Assembly: GCF_001282785.1 (NCBI RefSeq)
Contig: NZ_CVUA01000001.1
Coordinates: 186,001 to 250,000, forward strand
Reading direction: 5' to 3'
Length of the DNA: 64,000 nt
Source of the DNA: Halolamina sediminis
GTDB lineage: Archaea > Halobacteriota > Halobacteria > Halobacteriales > Haloferacaceae
Positions 2,206-35,395 of this stretch are shown in pieces. The stretch's first letter is position 1. Every line of letters begins with the position of its first letter. Position numbers and translations under genes: made by a program. The notes below the pieces were generated by a model. The model did no database searches. It saw only the letters and a list, made by a program, of their open reading frames with translations, and was not told where the DNA came from.

Positions 2206-2541
2206 ACAGCAGTTCGAGGCTAGACCACTTGCGACCGCAACCGCTCCGTACAGCCCTCATACCTCCCCAGCCGACTCACTCGCTTCGCTCGTTCGTCCCT
2301 CGCGCTGGTCGCGCCCACAAGGGGCGCTTCTGCTTCGCGCCGACCGCGACCGCGGTGCGGTGGCGGTGGACGCCTCGCGGCCGTCGACGAGAGCGAAGCT
2401 CTCGTCTGCCAATCAGAAATCTCTGATTTCTGATGACGGCGACGATCGCCGGCCGCGGGGGGAGGGGTGGGGATCCGGGGCTGTGCCGGACCTCGTGTCC
2501 GGCACCCTGCGGTCGCAAGTGGCCAACGATCGAGCTGCTGT
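2206..2541. mobile_element. MITE-like fold-back element with about 34-bp imperfect terminal inverted repeats
   Basis: Arms 2206-2239 and 2508-2541 are inverted copies matching at 28 of 34 positions, including a perfect 15-bp core CCACTTGCGACCGCA (2225-2239 against 2508-2522 on the other strand). Similarity continues inward: GGGGAGG...GGGCTGT is present on both arms. Inside are a 9-bp stem (GTGCCGGAC, 2482-2504) and a complete two-hairpin element at 2386-2438. No ORF of its own is convincing. It fills the ahcY-hjc gap. Target-site duplication and other genomic copies cannot be checked here. Confidence 0.55.
2386..2438 (+). repeat. Two-hairpin triloop element, copy A
   Basis: Hairpin 1 is GACGAGAGC-GAA-GCTCTCGTC (2386-2406), followed by the spacer TGCCA and hairpin 2 ATCAGAAATC-TCT-GATTTCTGAT (2412-2434), then GACG. 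The same order, spacing and flanks recur at 13240-13296 (opposite strand) and 35235-35289, with different but still fully paired stems. Confidence 0.75.
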
Positions 2542-5942: not shown

Positions 5943-7199
5943 ATGGCTGGGAACCGTCATTCACGGCTCGGTGTGGTGGTTCTCGTCCTTCTCCTTCTCG
6001 TAGGAGTGACTATCGTCGTGGCCGCGTCCGACCCGAGCATCGACGCCGATCCAAGCGAGGTCGACGCGGCCAACGCAACGTACGAAGTGACGGTCACCGT
6101 CGGATCACAGAGCAGCTCGCTGAACGGTCTCGAGGTCAACCTGAGTAACGCGAACTCGGACGTGAGCAACGTCAGTATCGAGGACGTGTCGACCGTCGGG
6201 ATCGATCGCGGTGACGACGAATCCGGGACGACGATCGACGAATCCGCCATGTCGGACCTCAGTAACGTCGACGTGAGTGGGGGCGGCTACGTTCTAACGC
6301 TCCGATTCGGTGGCTCGTACTCCCTGTACGACGGCGACGAGGTTGTCGTGGTCTTCGACGACGTGCAGAACCCCGTATCGTCGGGCACGTACGACGTTCC
6401 GTTGGACATCAACCCCCAGAGCAGCGGCGGCGAAGCGACCGGAACGCTCCAGATAACTGACCCCACACCCTCCCCCACTGCGACGCCGACACCTTCGCCG
6501 ACGTCAACACCGACCCCAACACCAACGTCGACACCTACTCCAACACCGACTGCAACACCGACTGTAACACCAACATCCACCCCGACCCCAACACCAACAC
6601 CGACACCGACTGCAACGCCAACACCGACACCGACTGCAACGCCAACACCGACACCGACTGCAACGCCAACACCGACACCGACTGCAACGCCAACCCCGAC
6701 ACCGACTGCAACGCCAACCCCGACACCGACACCGGCGCCTTCACCCACCGCTACGCCGACACCGACGCCCTCACCGACTGCAACGCCGACACCGTCACCG
6801 ACCGCAACGTCGACGCCCTCACCGACTGCAACGCCGACACCGTCACCGACCGCAACGTCGACGCCCTCACCGACTGCAACACCGGCTGATCCCCCGGGTG
6901 ACGGTGACGGGGGCGAACCGACATCCACGGATACGGACACCGCGACACCGACGGAGACAGCTAAACCGACTTCGACGGTAGCTGGAGCGACACCTGTGAC
7001 TCGAACCGCGACGACTACCGCAACACCGACTGTGACACCGTCGGAAACGGCTCCGCCAACCCCCACAGCGGACTTGAGTAAAGTGCCTCCCCGGATCAGC
7101 GGGGCGAACGATGAGGGAACGACTGCCGGTTGGTCGCTTAGCCTACTCCTGATCCTCCTCCTCTCTCTCGTGGTCGGTTACTACCGCTACCCGAACTGA
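5943..7199 (+). CDS. Thr/Pro-repeat, C-terminally anchored surface protein with cohesin-like domain
   Basis: A 418-residue secreted protein. An N-terminal hydrophobic segment (about 10-28) acts as signal peptide or anchor. An acidic beta-rich domain (about 30-175) of cohesin-like type follows, with several N-glycosylation sequons (NAT, NLS, NVS). A region rich in TPTPTATP-type repeats (about 177-318) comes next and is probably O-glycosylated and extended like a stalk. A C-terminal TM helix ending YYRYPN closes the protein. The stalk is encoded by a 24-bp minisatellite (from about 6606) and a 48-bp repeat (copies at 6764, 6812, 6860). Base composition is less GC-rich than in neighbours. The role, perhaps cell-surface adhesion or an envelope component, is inferred. 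Confidence 0.75.
6600..6884 (+). repeat. Minisatellite encoding the Thr/Pro stalk
   Basis: Tandem 24-bp units (ACTGCAACGCCAACACCGAC plus 4 nt) run from about 6606 to 6725. A 48-bp unit begins at 6764, repeats at 6812 and is partial at 6860. All units keep the reading frame, so copy-number change would lengthen or shorten the stalk without a frameshift. Confidence 0.85.
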
Positions 7200-12687: not shown

Positions 12688-13413
12688 TCAGCGGTCGATC
12701 CCGACGACGGTGACTCGGCCGCCATCGAACGAGACCGCCCCCTCGCCCCCCGTCGCGACGACTGTCAGCGGCGCCGGGGCCGCCGGCCGATCGGTCGGGA
12801 ACCACGCCCGTCCCGGCGCCGCGAGCACGAACGCGCCGGCCTCGTCGCCGAGGTACGCGAACCCCGCATCCGGCGAGCCGTCGACGTCGAACACGTCCGC
12901 GAGCGCCGCGGCGACCCTCGGGACGTCGTCCACGACGACGCCGATCTCGCCGACGTCGAGCAGCGAGTCGGGGCCGAACTCGCCGCCGTCGTTCGAGCCC
13001 GCACGCCCGTCGCGTGCGAGGAGTTCGAGCACGTTTCCCGCGGGGTCGAGGGCGTACATCGCGGTGGCGTCGAGGTACTCGTAACGGAACTGCGTCCGAT
13101 CACCGTCGGCCAGCAGGTCAGCGCGGGCGTCCAGCCACCTCGTGGCGGCGGCCGCGCTGCCGCCCGGGACGGAGAACGCGACGTGGTAGGTCGGCGCCGT
13201 GTCGGCAGTCGCGCGCCGGAACTCCACCGTCGAGGCGCCGACGTCACCAGAACGCTTCGCGTTCTGGTTGGCAGCCGAGAATCTCCGATTCTCGTCGACG
13301 GCGACGACGAACCCCTCGGCCGTGTCGCTCACGGGCAGACCGAGCCTCTCGGCGTAGAACGGGCGGAGGGCATCGGGGTCGGCCGTCGCGAGCGTGACCG
13401 AGCGGAGGCGCAT
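12688..13413 (-). CDS. VOC (glyoxalase/bleomycin-resistance fold) protein with a 19-residue repeat-encoded insert
   Basis: A 241-residue protein with two VOC-like halves. The first half begins VTLATADPDALRPFYAERLGL and continues to YALDPAGNVLELL; the second half (about 125-240) is more diverged. Substrate is unknown. Residues 40-58 (DENRRFSAANQNAKRSGDV) are encoded exactly by a two-hairpin element (13240-13296). Removing them joins VAV directly to GASTVEFRR, which restores a normal VOC beta-hairpin. The start overlaps the stop of the upstream orc1/cdc6 gene (ATG 13413 overlaps TGA by 1 nt; GTG 13416 is an alternative), so the two are probably cotranscribed. Confidence 0.8.
   Translation of the reverse strand: MRLRSVTLATADPDALRPFYAERLGLPVSDTAEGFVVAVDENRRFSAANQNAKRSGDVGASTVEFRRATADTAPTYHVAFSVPGGSAAAATRWLDARADLLADGDRTQFRYEYLDATAMYALDPAGNVLELLARDGRAGSNDGGEFGPDSLLDVGEIGVVVDDVPRVAAALADVFDVDGSPDAGFAYLGDEAGAFVLAAPGRAWFPTDRPAAPAPLTVVATGGEGAVSFDGGRVTVVGIDR
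13240..13296 (-). repeat. Two-hairpin triloop element, copy B, in frame within the VOC gene
   Basis: On the minus strand: CGAGAATC-GGA-GATTCTCG, then CTGCCA, then ACCAGAACGC-GAA-GCGTTCTGGT, then GACG. It is 57 bp, a multiple of three, and has no stop codon in the gene's frame. Its second hairpin is identical to that of copy C at 35.26 kb, and the spacer matches copy A. Confidence 0.8.
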
Positions 13414-14540
13414 CACTCCAGCCGGTCCAACACTGCCTCGGGCTCGTACGCCAGCGAGAGCGAGCGCGAGCGGCCGCGACCCTCCACGTCGGCGTACTCG
13501 GTCTCCAGCACGCCGAGCTGTTCGAGCTTCTTGACGATCTCGGAGTAGCGCGTGTAGCCGAGATCTGTCTCCTCGTGGAACGCGTCGTACACGTCGCCGG
13601 CCTGCTCCCCGCCGTGTTCGGCGACGACCCGGACCAGCGCGCGCTCGGAGTCGGAGAGCTCACGGAGGCTGCGCGCGAGGTGGACGTACTTCGAGCGCTC
13701 GTACGCCTCCTCGATGTCCTCCTCCTCGATCGTTCGCGAGCCCCGCATCTCGGCGTTGAGCCCGGCGCGGCGCAGGAGGTCGATCCCGACCCGGAGGTCG
13801 CCGCTGTCGGCGGTGAGTTCGGCGACGCGGTCGAGTTCGGGCGCCGAGAGCACGCCGTCGTGGAAGCCGCGATCGACGCGCTCCCGGAGGATGTCCACGA
13901 TCTCGGGGGCGTCGTAGGAGGGGAAGAAGATGTCCTCCGGGCGGAACACGCTCTGGACCCGGGAGTCGAGTTCGTCCATCACCGACAGCGAGAGATCGGA
14001 GGAGACCACGACGACGCCGATGCGCGCGCCGGCGTGGGTCTCGTGGGCCCGCAGGAGGGAGTACAGCGTGTCAGAGGCTTCGTTCTCGTAGAACAGGTAG
14101 TTCACGTCGTCGAGCGCGACGATGAGTACCTCCTCCTCCTCGACGAGCCGGTCGGTCACCTGCTCGAACAGCTTCTTGAAGGAGACGCCGGAGGAGGGCG
14201 GCTCGTAGTCGAACACGCTCTGGAACAGCCGCGAGAACACCGCGTACCGCGTCGAGTCGACCTGACAGTTCACGCGGACGGTCCGGACGTTCGGCGCCTC
14301 GACGCCGAGTTCGCCGAACAGCTTCTGGACCGCGGTGGTCTTCCCCGTCCCCGGCGGCCCGCGGATCACGGTGTTGAGCGGGCGGGAGCCACGGACGGCG
14401 GGCCGGAGCGCGTACTTCAGGCTCTCCAGCTGGCTCTCGCGGTGTTTGAACGTCTCGGGGACGTAGTCGACTTCGAAGACGGACTCGTCGCGGAACACGG
14501 ATTCGTCCCACGAGAGCATGCCGTCGGGGTCCCCGGTCAT
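13413..14540 (-). CDS. Orc1/Cdc6-type replication initiator
   Basis: Archaeal origin-recognition AAA+ ATPase of 375 residues: Walker A RGPPGTGKTT (about 60-69), Walker B LDDVNYL, sensor region VVVSSDLSL, and a C-terminal winged helix (about 290-375) for DNA binding. Haloarchaea carry several paralogues; which one this is cannot be told. A TATA-like GTTAAGTGG lies about 25 nt before ATG 14540. The upstream region holds a repeat element rather than recognisable ORB repeats, so this copy does not look origin-linked. Confidence 0.93.
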   Translation of the reverse strand: MTGDPDGMLSWDESVFRDESVFEVDYVPETFKHRESQLESLKYALRPAVRGSRPLNTVIRGPPGTGKTTAVQKLFGELGVEAPNVRTVRVNCQVDSTRYAVFSRLFQSVFDYEPPSSGVSFKKLFEQVTDRLVEEEEVLIVALDDVNYLFYENEASDTLYSLLRAHETHAGARIGVVVVSSDLSLSVMDELDSRVQSVFRPEDIFFPSYDAPEIVDILRERVDRGFHDGVLSAPELDRVAELTADSGDLRVGIDLLRRAGLNAEMRGSRTIEEEDIEEAYERSKYVHLARSLRELSDSERALVRVVAEHGGEQAGDVYDAFHEETDLGYTRYSEIVKKLEQLGVLETEYADVEGRGRSRSLSLAYEPEAVLDRLE

Positions 14541-35182: not shown

Positions 35183-35395
35183 ATCGGTCGGAGACCGATA
35201 TTACGTAGGCAGTCGAGCTTCGCTCGACTACGTTAACGAGAGCCGGTGGCTCTCGTTCGCCAACCAGAACGCGAAGCGTTCTGGTGACGCCGATGTAAGC
35301 GAGGCGGGAAAACTCGCCAAAGGCGAGGCAAACCGCCTCGATACCGAGCGGGGAGCGCTTCGCGCGACCCGCGAGGTGACGTTCGGCCGCTAACT
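35183..35395 (+). repeat. Hairpin array including two-hairpin element copy C
   Basis: Just after the thermosome stop there are consecutive triloop hairpins: ATCGGTC-GGA-GACCGAT (35183-35199) and GTCGAGC-TTC-GCTCGAC (35212-35228). Element C follows (35235-35289): ACGAGAGCC-GGT-GGCTCTCGT, the spacer TCGCCA, ACCAGAACGC-GAA-GCGTTCTGGT, then GACG. Further CGAGGC/GCCTCG and GCGC-TTC-GCGC stems follow. The first may act as a 3' processing or termination signal. The rest of the gap to 35716 holds only short palindromes and AT-rich promoter-like tracts (35519-35526 and 35690-35700). Confidence 0.7.

Follow-up and report, generated by a model that had tools for sequence, protein, structure and literature searches.

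A VOC/glyoxalase-like gene of Halolamina sediminis is interrupted in frame by a short palindromic element that belongs to a real multi-copy family with compensatory stems, and the likely explanation is that a mobile palindromic repeat, spreading in a REP-like manner, has invaded the gene. In this reading the insert would be one copy of a non-autonomous mobile repeat found throughout the haloarchaea. Its mobilisation is inferred, as is, from sequence alone, its translation. The window, meaning the whole stretch of DNA that was analysed, is 64,000 nucleotides long, and the features in it that bear on this interpretation are collected in Table 1.

The VOC insert and its empty sites

The host protein matches the Pfam family Glyoxalase_6 (PF18029, E 7e-8). 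On the minus strand, from 13296 to 13240, the insert reads GACGAGAATCGGAGATTCTCGGCTGCCAACCAGAACGCGAAGCGTTCTGGTGACGTC. An earlier note on this DNA had claimed that a palindromic element of 57 bp lies inside the gene, leaves the frame open and encodes 19 residues, and this held in both the sequence and its ORF, with the VOC frame staying intact across the insert. On both strands the insert folds more stably than its dinucleotide shuffles (z -4.1 and -4.3, equalled by 0 and 1 of 200 shuffles, respectively). A single-sequence AlphaFold model of the protein is poor (mean pLDDT 38), placing the insert between two predicted strands and being otherwise unusable.

Table 1. Positions of the VOC gene, its insert and the related copies in the window
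Feature	Position	Strand	Basis and remarks
Host gene, VOC/glyoxalase-like, 242 aa	12688..13416	(-)	open frame; GTG start at 13416, ATG at 13413
Net insert, 57 bp, encoding DENRRFSAANQNAKRSGDV (19 residues)	13240..13296	(-)	missing from orthologues
Full match to element model R1, 61 positions	13241..13301 (genome C1:199241-199301)	(-)	covariance model search of own genome; 81.2 bits, E 2.5e-24
Hairpin 1, CGAGAATC-GGA-GATTCTCG, perfect, 8 bp with 3-nt loop	13276..13294	(-)	folding; compensatory changes, helix 2 of alignment
Spacer GCTGCCA between hairpins, conserved	13269..13275	(-)	alignment of copies
Hairpin 2, ACCAGAACGC-GAA-GCGTTCTGGT, perfect, 10 bp with 3-nt loop	13246..13268	(-)	folding; compensatory changes, helix 3 of alignment
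Second copy, non-coding, within larger composite intergenic repeat	2381..2439	(+)	R1, 79.3 bits; flanks common to other copies
Third copy, non-coding, isolated, flanks unshared	35230..35290	(+)	R1, 80.4 bits; flank comparison

A search for VOC orthologues at E 1e-15 across the order returned only the gene itself, and a relaxed search among relatives recovered the orthologues. In four congeners these read FVVAV/GASAMEFR or similar (the slash marks the junction) and are exactly 19 residues shorter, while in a fifth congener the match is split by the same gap. The earlier note had proposed such an alignment and had predicted that deletion of the insert would join VAV to GAS, which is precisely the junction that the orthologues show. 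It had also stated that its reading of a repeat having invaded a coding gene would be refuted if orthologues always carried the insert or if the element were found nowhere else in the genome. Neither outcome occurred, and the reading is supported by the orthologues without the insert together with the abundance of the element in the genome and the order. The VOC insertion is likely to postdate the split of this Halolamina lineage from its congeners.

Orthologues have precise empty sites in five genes (VOC, DapA, DapF, a phosphoesterase and an MFS transporter), the S9 peptidases and TnpB lying outside that comparison. Within the genus, the empty versions lack 19 residues in DapA, 17 in DapF and 15 in both the phosphoesterase and the MFS transporter; the DapA insert is common to one other congener (G119). 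The structure of M. jannaschii DapA (2yxg) likewise has a 19-residue gap at the place of the insert.

An alternative possibility is that the VOC gene is decaying into a pseudogene and that the in-frame length of the insert is mere luck. In favor of this view, a small domain would have to accommodate a large insert, which lies inside the VOC fold. Against it, the frame is open, and the dN/dS of the VOC gene with its insert against orthologues (0.29-0.46) is in the same range as that of insert-free pairs (0.20-0.43). The other insert-bearing genes behave alike, with values of 0.16-0.23 for DapA (0.19-0.24 in insert-free pairs), 0.22-0.30 for DapF (0.20-0.32) and 0.18-0.27 for the phosphoesterase (0.14-0.33). 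These values are pairwise and share branches. The four interrupted genes tested are still under purifying selection, and decay of the VOC gene is very unlikely. As for the insert peptide in VOC, whose translation is an inference from the gene, it is unlikely to have a function in its own right.

The repeat family in the genome and across the order

When the 61 nt of the VOC copy were compared with their own genome by BLAST (self-match E 6.7e-26), eight further near-full-length matches were found, with E from 1.7e-19 to 2.5e-11, in addition to about a score of partial matches. Relatives of the element had been claimed at 2.39 and 35.24 kb, outside genes, and this held, as variants rather than identical copies: the copy at 35.2 kb is 84% identical to the VOC copy (BLAST), and the copy at 2.39 kb, shorter by 2 nt, has stems of a different sequence. 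A covariance model built from 22 copies (R1) finds ~50 sites at >=25 bits in the 2.84-Mb, one-contig genome, the mirror hits that the palindrome gives on the opposite strand having been merged for this count.

These copies bear on the possibility that the insert is an ordinary, lineage-specific expansion of a VOC loop whose likeness to the repeats is due to chance. Loop length varies among VOC proteins, which speaks for such an expansion. Against it stand the eight other matching sites in the genome, the two perfect hairpins and the fact that the peptide recurs in the genes for DapA, an SSF symporter, RlmE and an antitoxin, and the possibility is all but excluded. Chance likeness as such is refuted by the copies elsewhere.

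The element is ~59-61 nt long and consists of hairpin 1, the spacer CTGCCAA and hairpin 2, and its two ends carry CGTC and GACG, respectively. Its boundaries could be set because copies at unrelated sites share only ~60 nt. The consensus is CGTCGACGAGA..TCTCG-KCTGCCAA-YCAGAA..TTCTGR-TGACG, and nearly all 22 copies have CGT at columns 2-4 and GACG at columns 57-60, the last base of the left tag being variable (CGTC, CGTT or CGTA). In the alignment of these copies 97.9% of the stem cells are paired, as opposed to 30-42% in slid controls, and 51 stem cells are double-changed against 21.0 in shuffles, with 0 of 500 shuffles as high. The loops switch freely between GAA-like and TTC-like triplets.

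Most copies in the genome are intergenic. Many of these sit in composite repeats of ~200-480 nt, such as the one at 2200-2547 of the window, which is common to many places in the genome; the blocks of these composites include GGGGAGGGGTGGGGACTCGG, GTGCCGGACCTCGTGTCCGGCAC and TGCGGTCGCAAGTGG. The VOC copy, the DapA copy and several isolated copies lie outside composite repeats. At C1:2125822-2125910 of the genome, two copies of opposite orientation are arranged back to back with one hairpin 1 in common. The element also overlaps the end of a putative dnaK (..DFEDVDEDE/DS-stop), whose stop codon falls within the hairpin 1 loop, both in this genome (C1:1659641-1659708) and in Halalkalicoccus paucihalophilus (L168:7262-7329), so that this position is common to two distant genera. 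A repeat of a different kind, a direct array of ~500 bp with a 12-nt period, occupies 6426-6931 of the window.

Across the order, R1 has matches at E <=1e-8 in 239 of the 293 genomes sampled and in 79 of 87 genera, and the number of matches per congener genome varies from 5 to 110 (mirror hits included). The organism names of matches rest on a single scan of public genomes with a core pattern, in which the named matches were mostly Halolamina (H. salifodinae, H. pelagica and H. rubra), with others in Halobellus, Halarchaeum, Haladaptatus, Halocatena and Halalkalicoccus; the same scan gave bacterial matches that are possibly due to chance. The element is carried by haloarchaeal plasmids, and a search of phage records with it gave no match.

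It could also be proposed that the element is an RNA element under selection, such as a terminator or a processing or regulatory hairpin, that sometimes overlaps genes. The strong conservation of the stems by compensatory change and the intergenic position of the majority of copies are in keeping with this proposal. It is nonetheless unlikely, given the in-frame copies in the middle of unrelated enzymes, with exact empty sites in relatives, and a copy number of ~5 to 110 among congeners, both of which would be unexpected for a conserved regulator. Furthermore, no Rfam family matches the insert region.

In-frame copies and how they may arise

Many unrelated genes contain the element in frame, read in a single frame and orientation; this is shown, with translation again inferred from sequence alone. 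Eight genes of the genome carry it in this way (VOC, DapA, DapF, two S9 peptidases, the MFS transporter, the phosphoesterase and a histidine kinase), DapA and DapF lying 3 kb apart. In other haloarchaea, two in-frame copies stand in tandem in the tail of an SSF symporter and also in RlmE/FtsJ, and further hosts include a phosphoribosyltransferase, an M20 peptidase, another S9 peptidase and two unnamed proteins. In four genera the element forms part of the C-terminus of an AbrB/MazE-type antitoxin, the gene of which adjoins a probable PIN-type toxin gene. The two-gene unit of antitoxin and probable toxin is seen in Halobellus, Halarchaeum and Halolamina (L140:1117-1858, L175, L180 and L163). 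A search for like inserts in unrelated families had been suggested by the earlier note, and the outcome is ~15 genes from a dozen families.

The in-frame survey considered all six frames and demanded high third-position GC on both flanks. With the exception of TnpB, all in-frame genes share the same frame and orientation and the peptide (V)(D/A)E....S.A.Q....SGD(V/A). In the family of TnpB, an RNA-guided endonuclease, the element is reversed and read in another frame, as RRHQNSESSDWRTRHDVSRQRQT, directly behind the zinc ribbon and close to the gene's 3' end. Loci of this type occur in several genera (L202-L212, e.g., L202:1345-2799(-)).

The histidine kinase presents a special case. R1 matches the kinase of the own genome at its ATP-binding N-box (E 8.5e-7), and kinases across the order have N-box inserts of the form NAVEHGSTGNQTQSGDAVEHG (NAVEHGSTxxxxxxxDAVEHG), which combine a 7-bp hairpin spanning the codons of Val-Glu-His with a TGGCAA-like spacer, a second hairpin and a repeat of (A/S)VEHG; one such insert is a tandem pair. 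The third bases of Val and Ser, which are synonymous, are complementary in 29 of 39 cases against 15.2 expected (0 of 20,000 shuffles as high), and those of Glu and Gly/Ser in 27 of 39 against 17.6 expected (P ~0.001), although the shuffles ignore shared ancestry. R1 gave no convincing recovery of kinases in other genera. A relation between the kinase inserts and the mobile element is thus not established at the level of sequence, and a common origin, while plausible, is put forward only as a possibility. A bolder reading, as easily doubted as believed, is that the N-box insert is an ancient copy of the element that was kept, spread through the family and is still nucleic-acid-shaped, the last point resting on the covariation of synonymous third positions on the hairpin arms. 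If this were true, a selfish palindrome would have given a family of signalling proteins one of its conserved features.

The preference for one frame may be related to the target. In 43 probable genes of the window, coding-strand CGTC falls as xxC-GTC in 514 of 558 cases, and therefore a sense insertion directed by CGTC lands in the observed frame. GACG occurs 844 times in the same genes, at least as many as CGTC, so reverse insertions would be expected to be equally common; that, TnpB apart, reverse in-frame copies are absent despite this expectation points to selection. Only two frames have a net acidic composition, the observed one and another that is more hydrophobic; the remaining four are basic. 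By inference, an acidic frame should suit the acidic proteins of haloarchaea.

In VOC, three congeners have CGTC at the empty junction, and the filled site is flanked by CGTC on either side. The empty junctions of the phosphoesterase and of DapF likewise contain the motif, in one congener each, but an exact CGTC is missing from those of MFS (which has CGTG) and DapA. The MFS insert lies between two copies of a 13-bp repeat, CGACGTCGACGAG. The target duplications are short or have decayed, and they are in part ambiguous: because the ends of the element, which read CGTCGACGAG and TGACG, resemble the target, duplication and preference of the target cannot be fully separated.

No mobilising enzyme has been identified, the own genome holding only fragments of Y1 transposases. 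One possibility is that the repeats are shrunken relatives of IS200/IS605 (terminal-only PATEs) moved by Y1 TnpA, and that the in-frame copies are relics. In support of this, a 52-bp, terminal-only, palindrome-bearing PATE that is possibly still mobile has been described in Haloquadratum (PMC3119063), four congeners have intact Y1 genes, and the TnpB gene family carries a copy in its 3' part in many genera. However, ten Y1 loci of the genus contain no credible R1 match (best E 0.096), the own genome has ~50 copies although its Y1 transposases are all fragments, congeners show no agreement between number of copies and number of Y1 genes, and PATEs are said to lack target duplications and inverted ends, whereas the element has CGTC/GACG ends. 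This origin is regarded as unlikely. Two narrower proposals are also unsupported: one would make the repeat a terminus of an intact IS200/IS605 element in the genus, whose Y1 loci have no R1-like ends, and the other would tie copy number among congeners to the number of Y1 transposases.

Under the preferred explanation, that of a mobile palindromic repeat with REP-like spread, copies would spread as hairpin DNA, as REPs and REPINs do, by means of an enzyme acting in trans, for which a Y1/HUH-type nuclease is a first guess. Insertion would prefer targets containing CGTC and leave a short target duplication. Sense insertions of 3n length would enter the frame for a hydrophilic, not-basic peptide and may be tolerated in loops, while frame-breaking or reverse-oriented copies would be purged.

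Relation to known palindromic repeats

The earlier note had likened the insert to the palindromic elements of Rickettsia, and this is apt with respect to behaviour, although the CGTC-tagged REPs of bacteria are equally close. RPEs are palindromic repeats found in frame in unrelated protein genes, where they encode a conserved peptide, and also between genes (PMC10969869). The present element similarly lies in frame in unrelated ORFs, with ~15 genes and insert-free orthologues for five. It differs in its archaeal host and in its unit of ~60 bp with two short hairpins, as opposed to ~150 bp in RPEs. Sequence kinship between the two is not expected, and the likeness rests on behaviour.

CGTC-tagged REPs have a tag beside a short hairpin, usually occur as inverted pairs, have some copies in frame and are not known to have a dedicated transposase; they include the Rickettsia RPE-4 and RPE-6 as well as dRS3, and the survey that describes them covers bacteria only, with none from archaea (PMC3733652). 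The CGTC motif at the end of each hairpin is a shared feature. The first two stem pairs, which are A-T in these REPs, are C-G and G-C in hairpin 1 of the element and A-T, C-G or T-A in hairpin 2, and the stems of 8 and 10 bp with loops of 3 nt contrast with stems of 8-9 bp and loops of 4-5 nt. The REPs have an unpaired tail fitting CCA, and the spacer of the element has CCA or TGG depending on the strand; the tails appear to differ, with an ambiguous correspondence. REPINs resemble the element in combining a pair of REP hairpins into a single replicating unit that carries no gene. They differ in their GTAG tag and their tie to RAYT transposases, the element having a CGTC tag and no partner found, with only Y1 fragments in the own genome.

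The earlier note knew of no such description for haloarchaea. This held for coding repeats, of which no earlier haloarchaeal account was found in the open-access literature searched, but not for non-coding mobile ones, as PATEs and SMRs had already been described in Haloquadratum walsbyi. Like the element, these are short, transposase-free, palindrome-bearing mobile repeats of a haloarchaeon (PMC3119063); they are described as IS605-linked or enigmatic and not as coding (PMC3119063). PATEs are tied to IS605-type ends. No such tie was seen for the element, as no R1-like ends are present in ten Y1 loci from the genus, a comparison that did not extend to PATE sequences. PATEs are also said to lack terminal inverted repeats and target duplication; the CGTC/GACG ends of the element pair and repeats flank the VOC and MFS inserts, but the ends resemble the target and leave this comparison ambiguous.

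For annotation, repeated segments of 15-19 residues in unrelated haloarchaeal proteins may be genomic repeats and not domains. The covariation in histidine kinases suggests that such insertions can become fixed in a protein family, and how palindromes without genes move, and how often selfish DNA seeds protein segments, are now open to testing. In-frame invasion of proteins by palindromes was known before mainly from Rickettsia and some REP-rich bacteria; here it occurs in Archaea, in free-living halophiles and on the scale of an order, and a single genus offers filled sites together with their empty counterparts.
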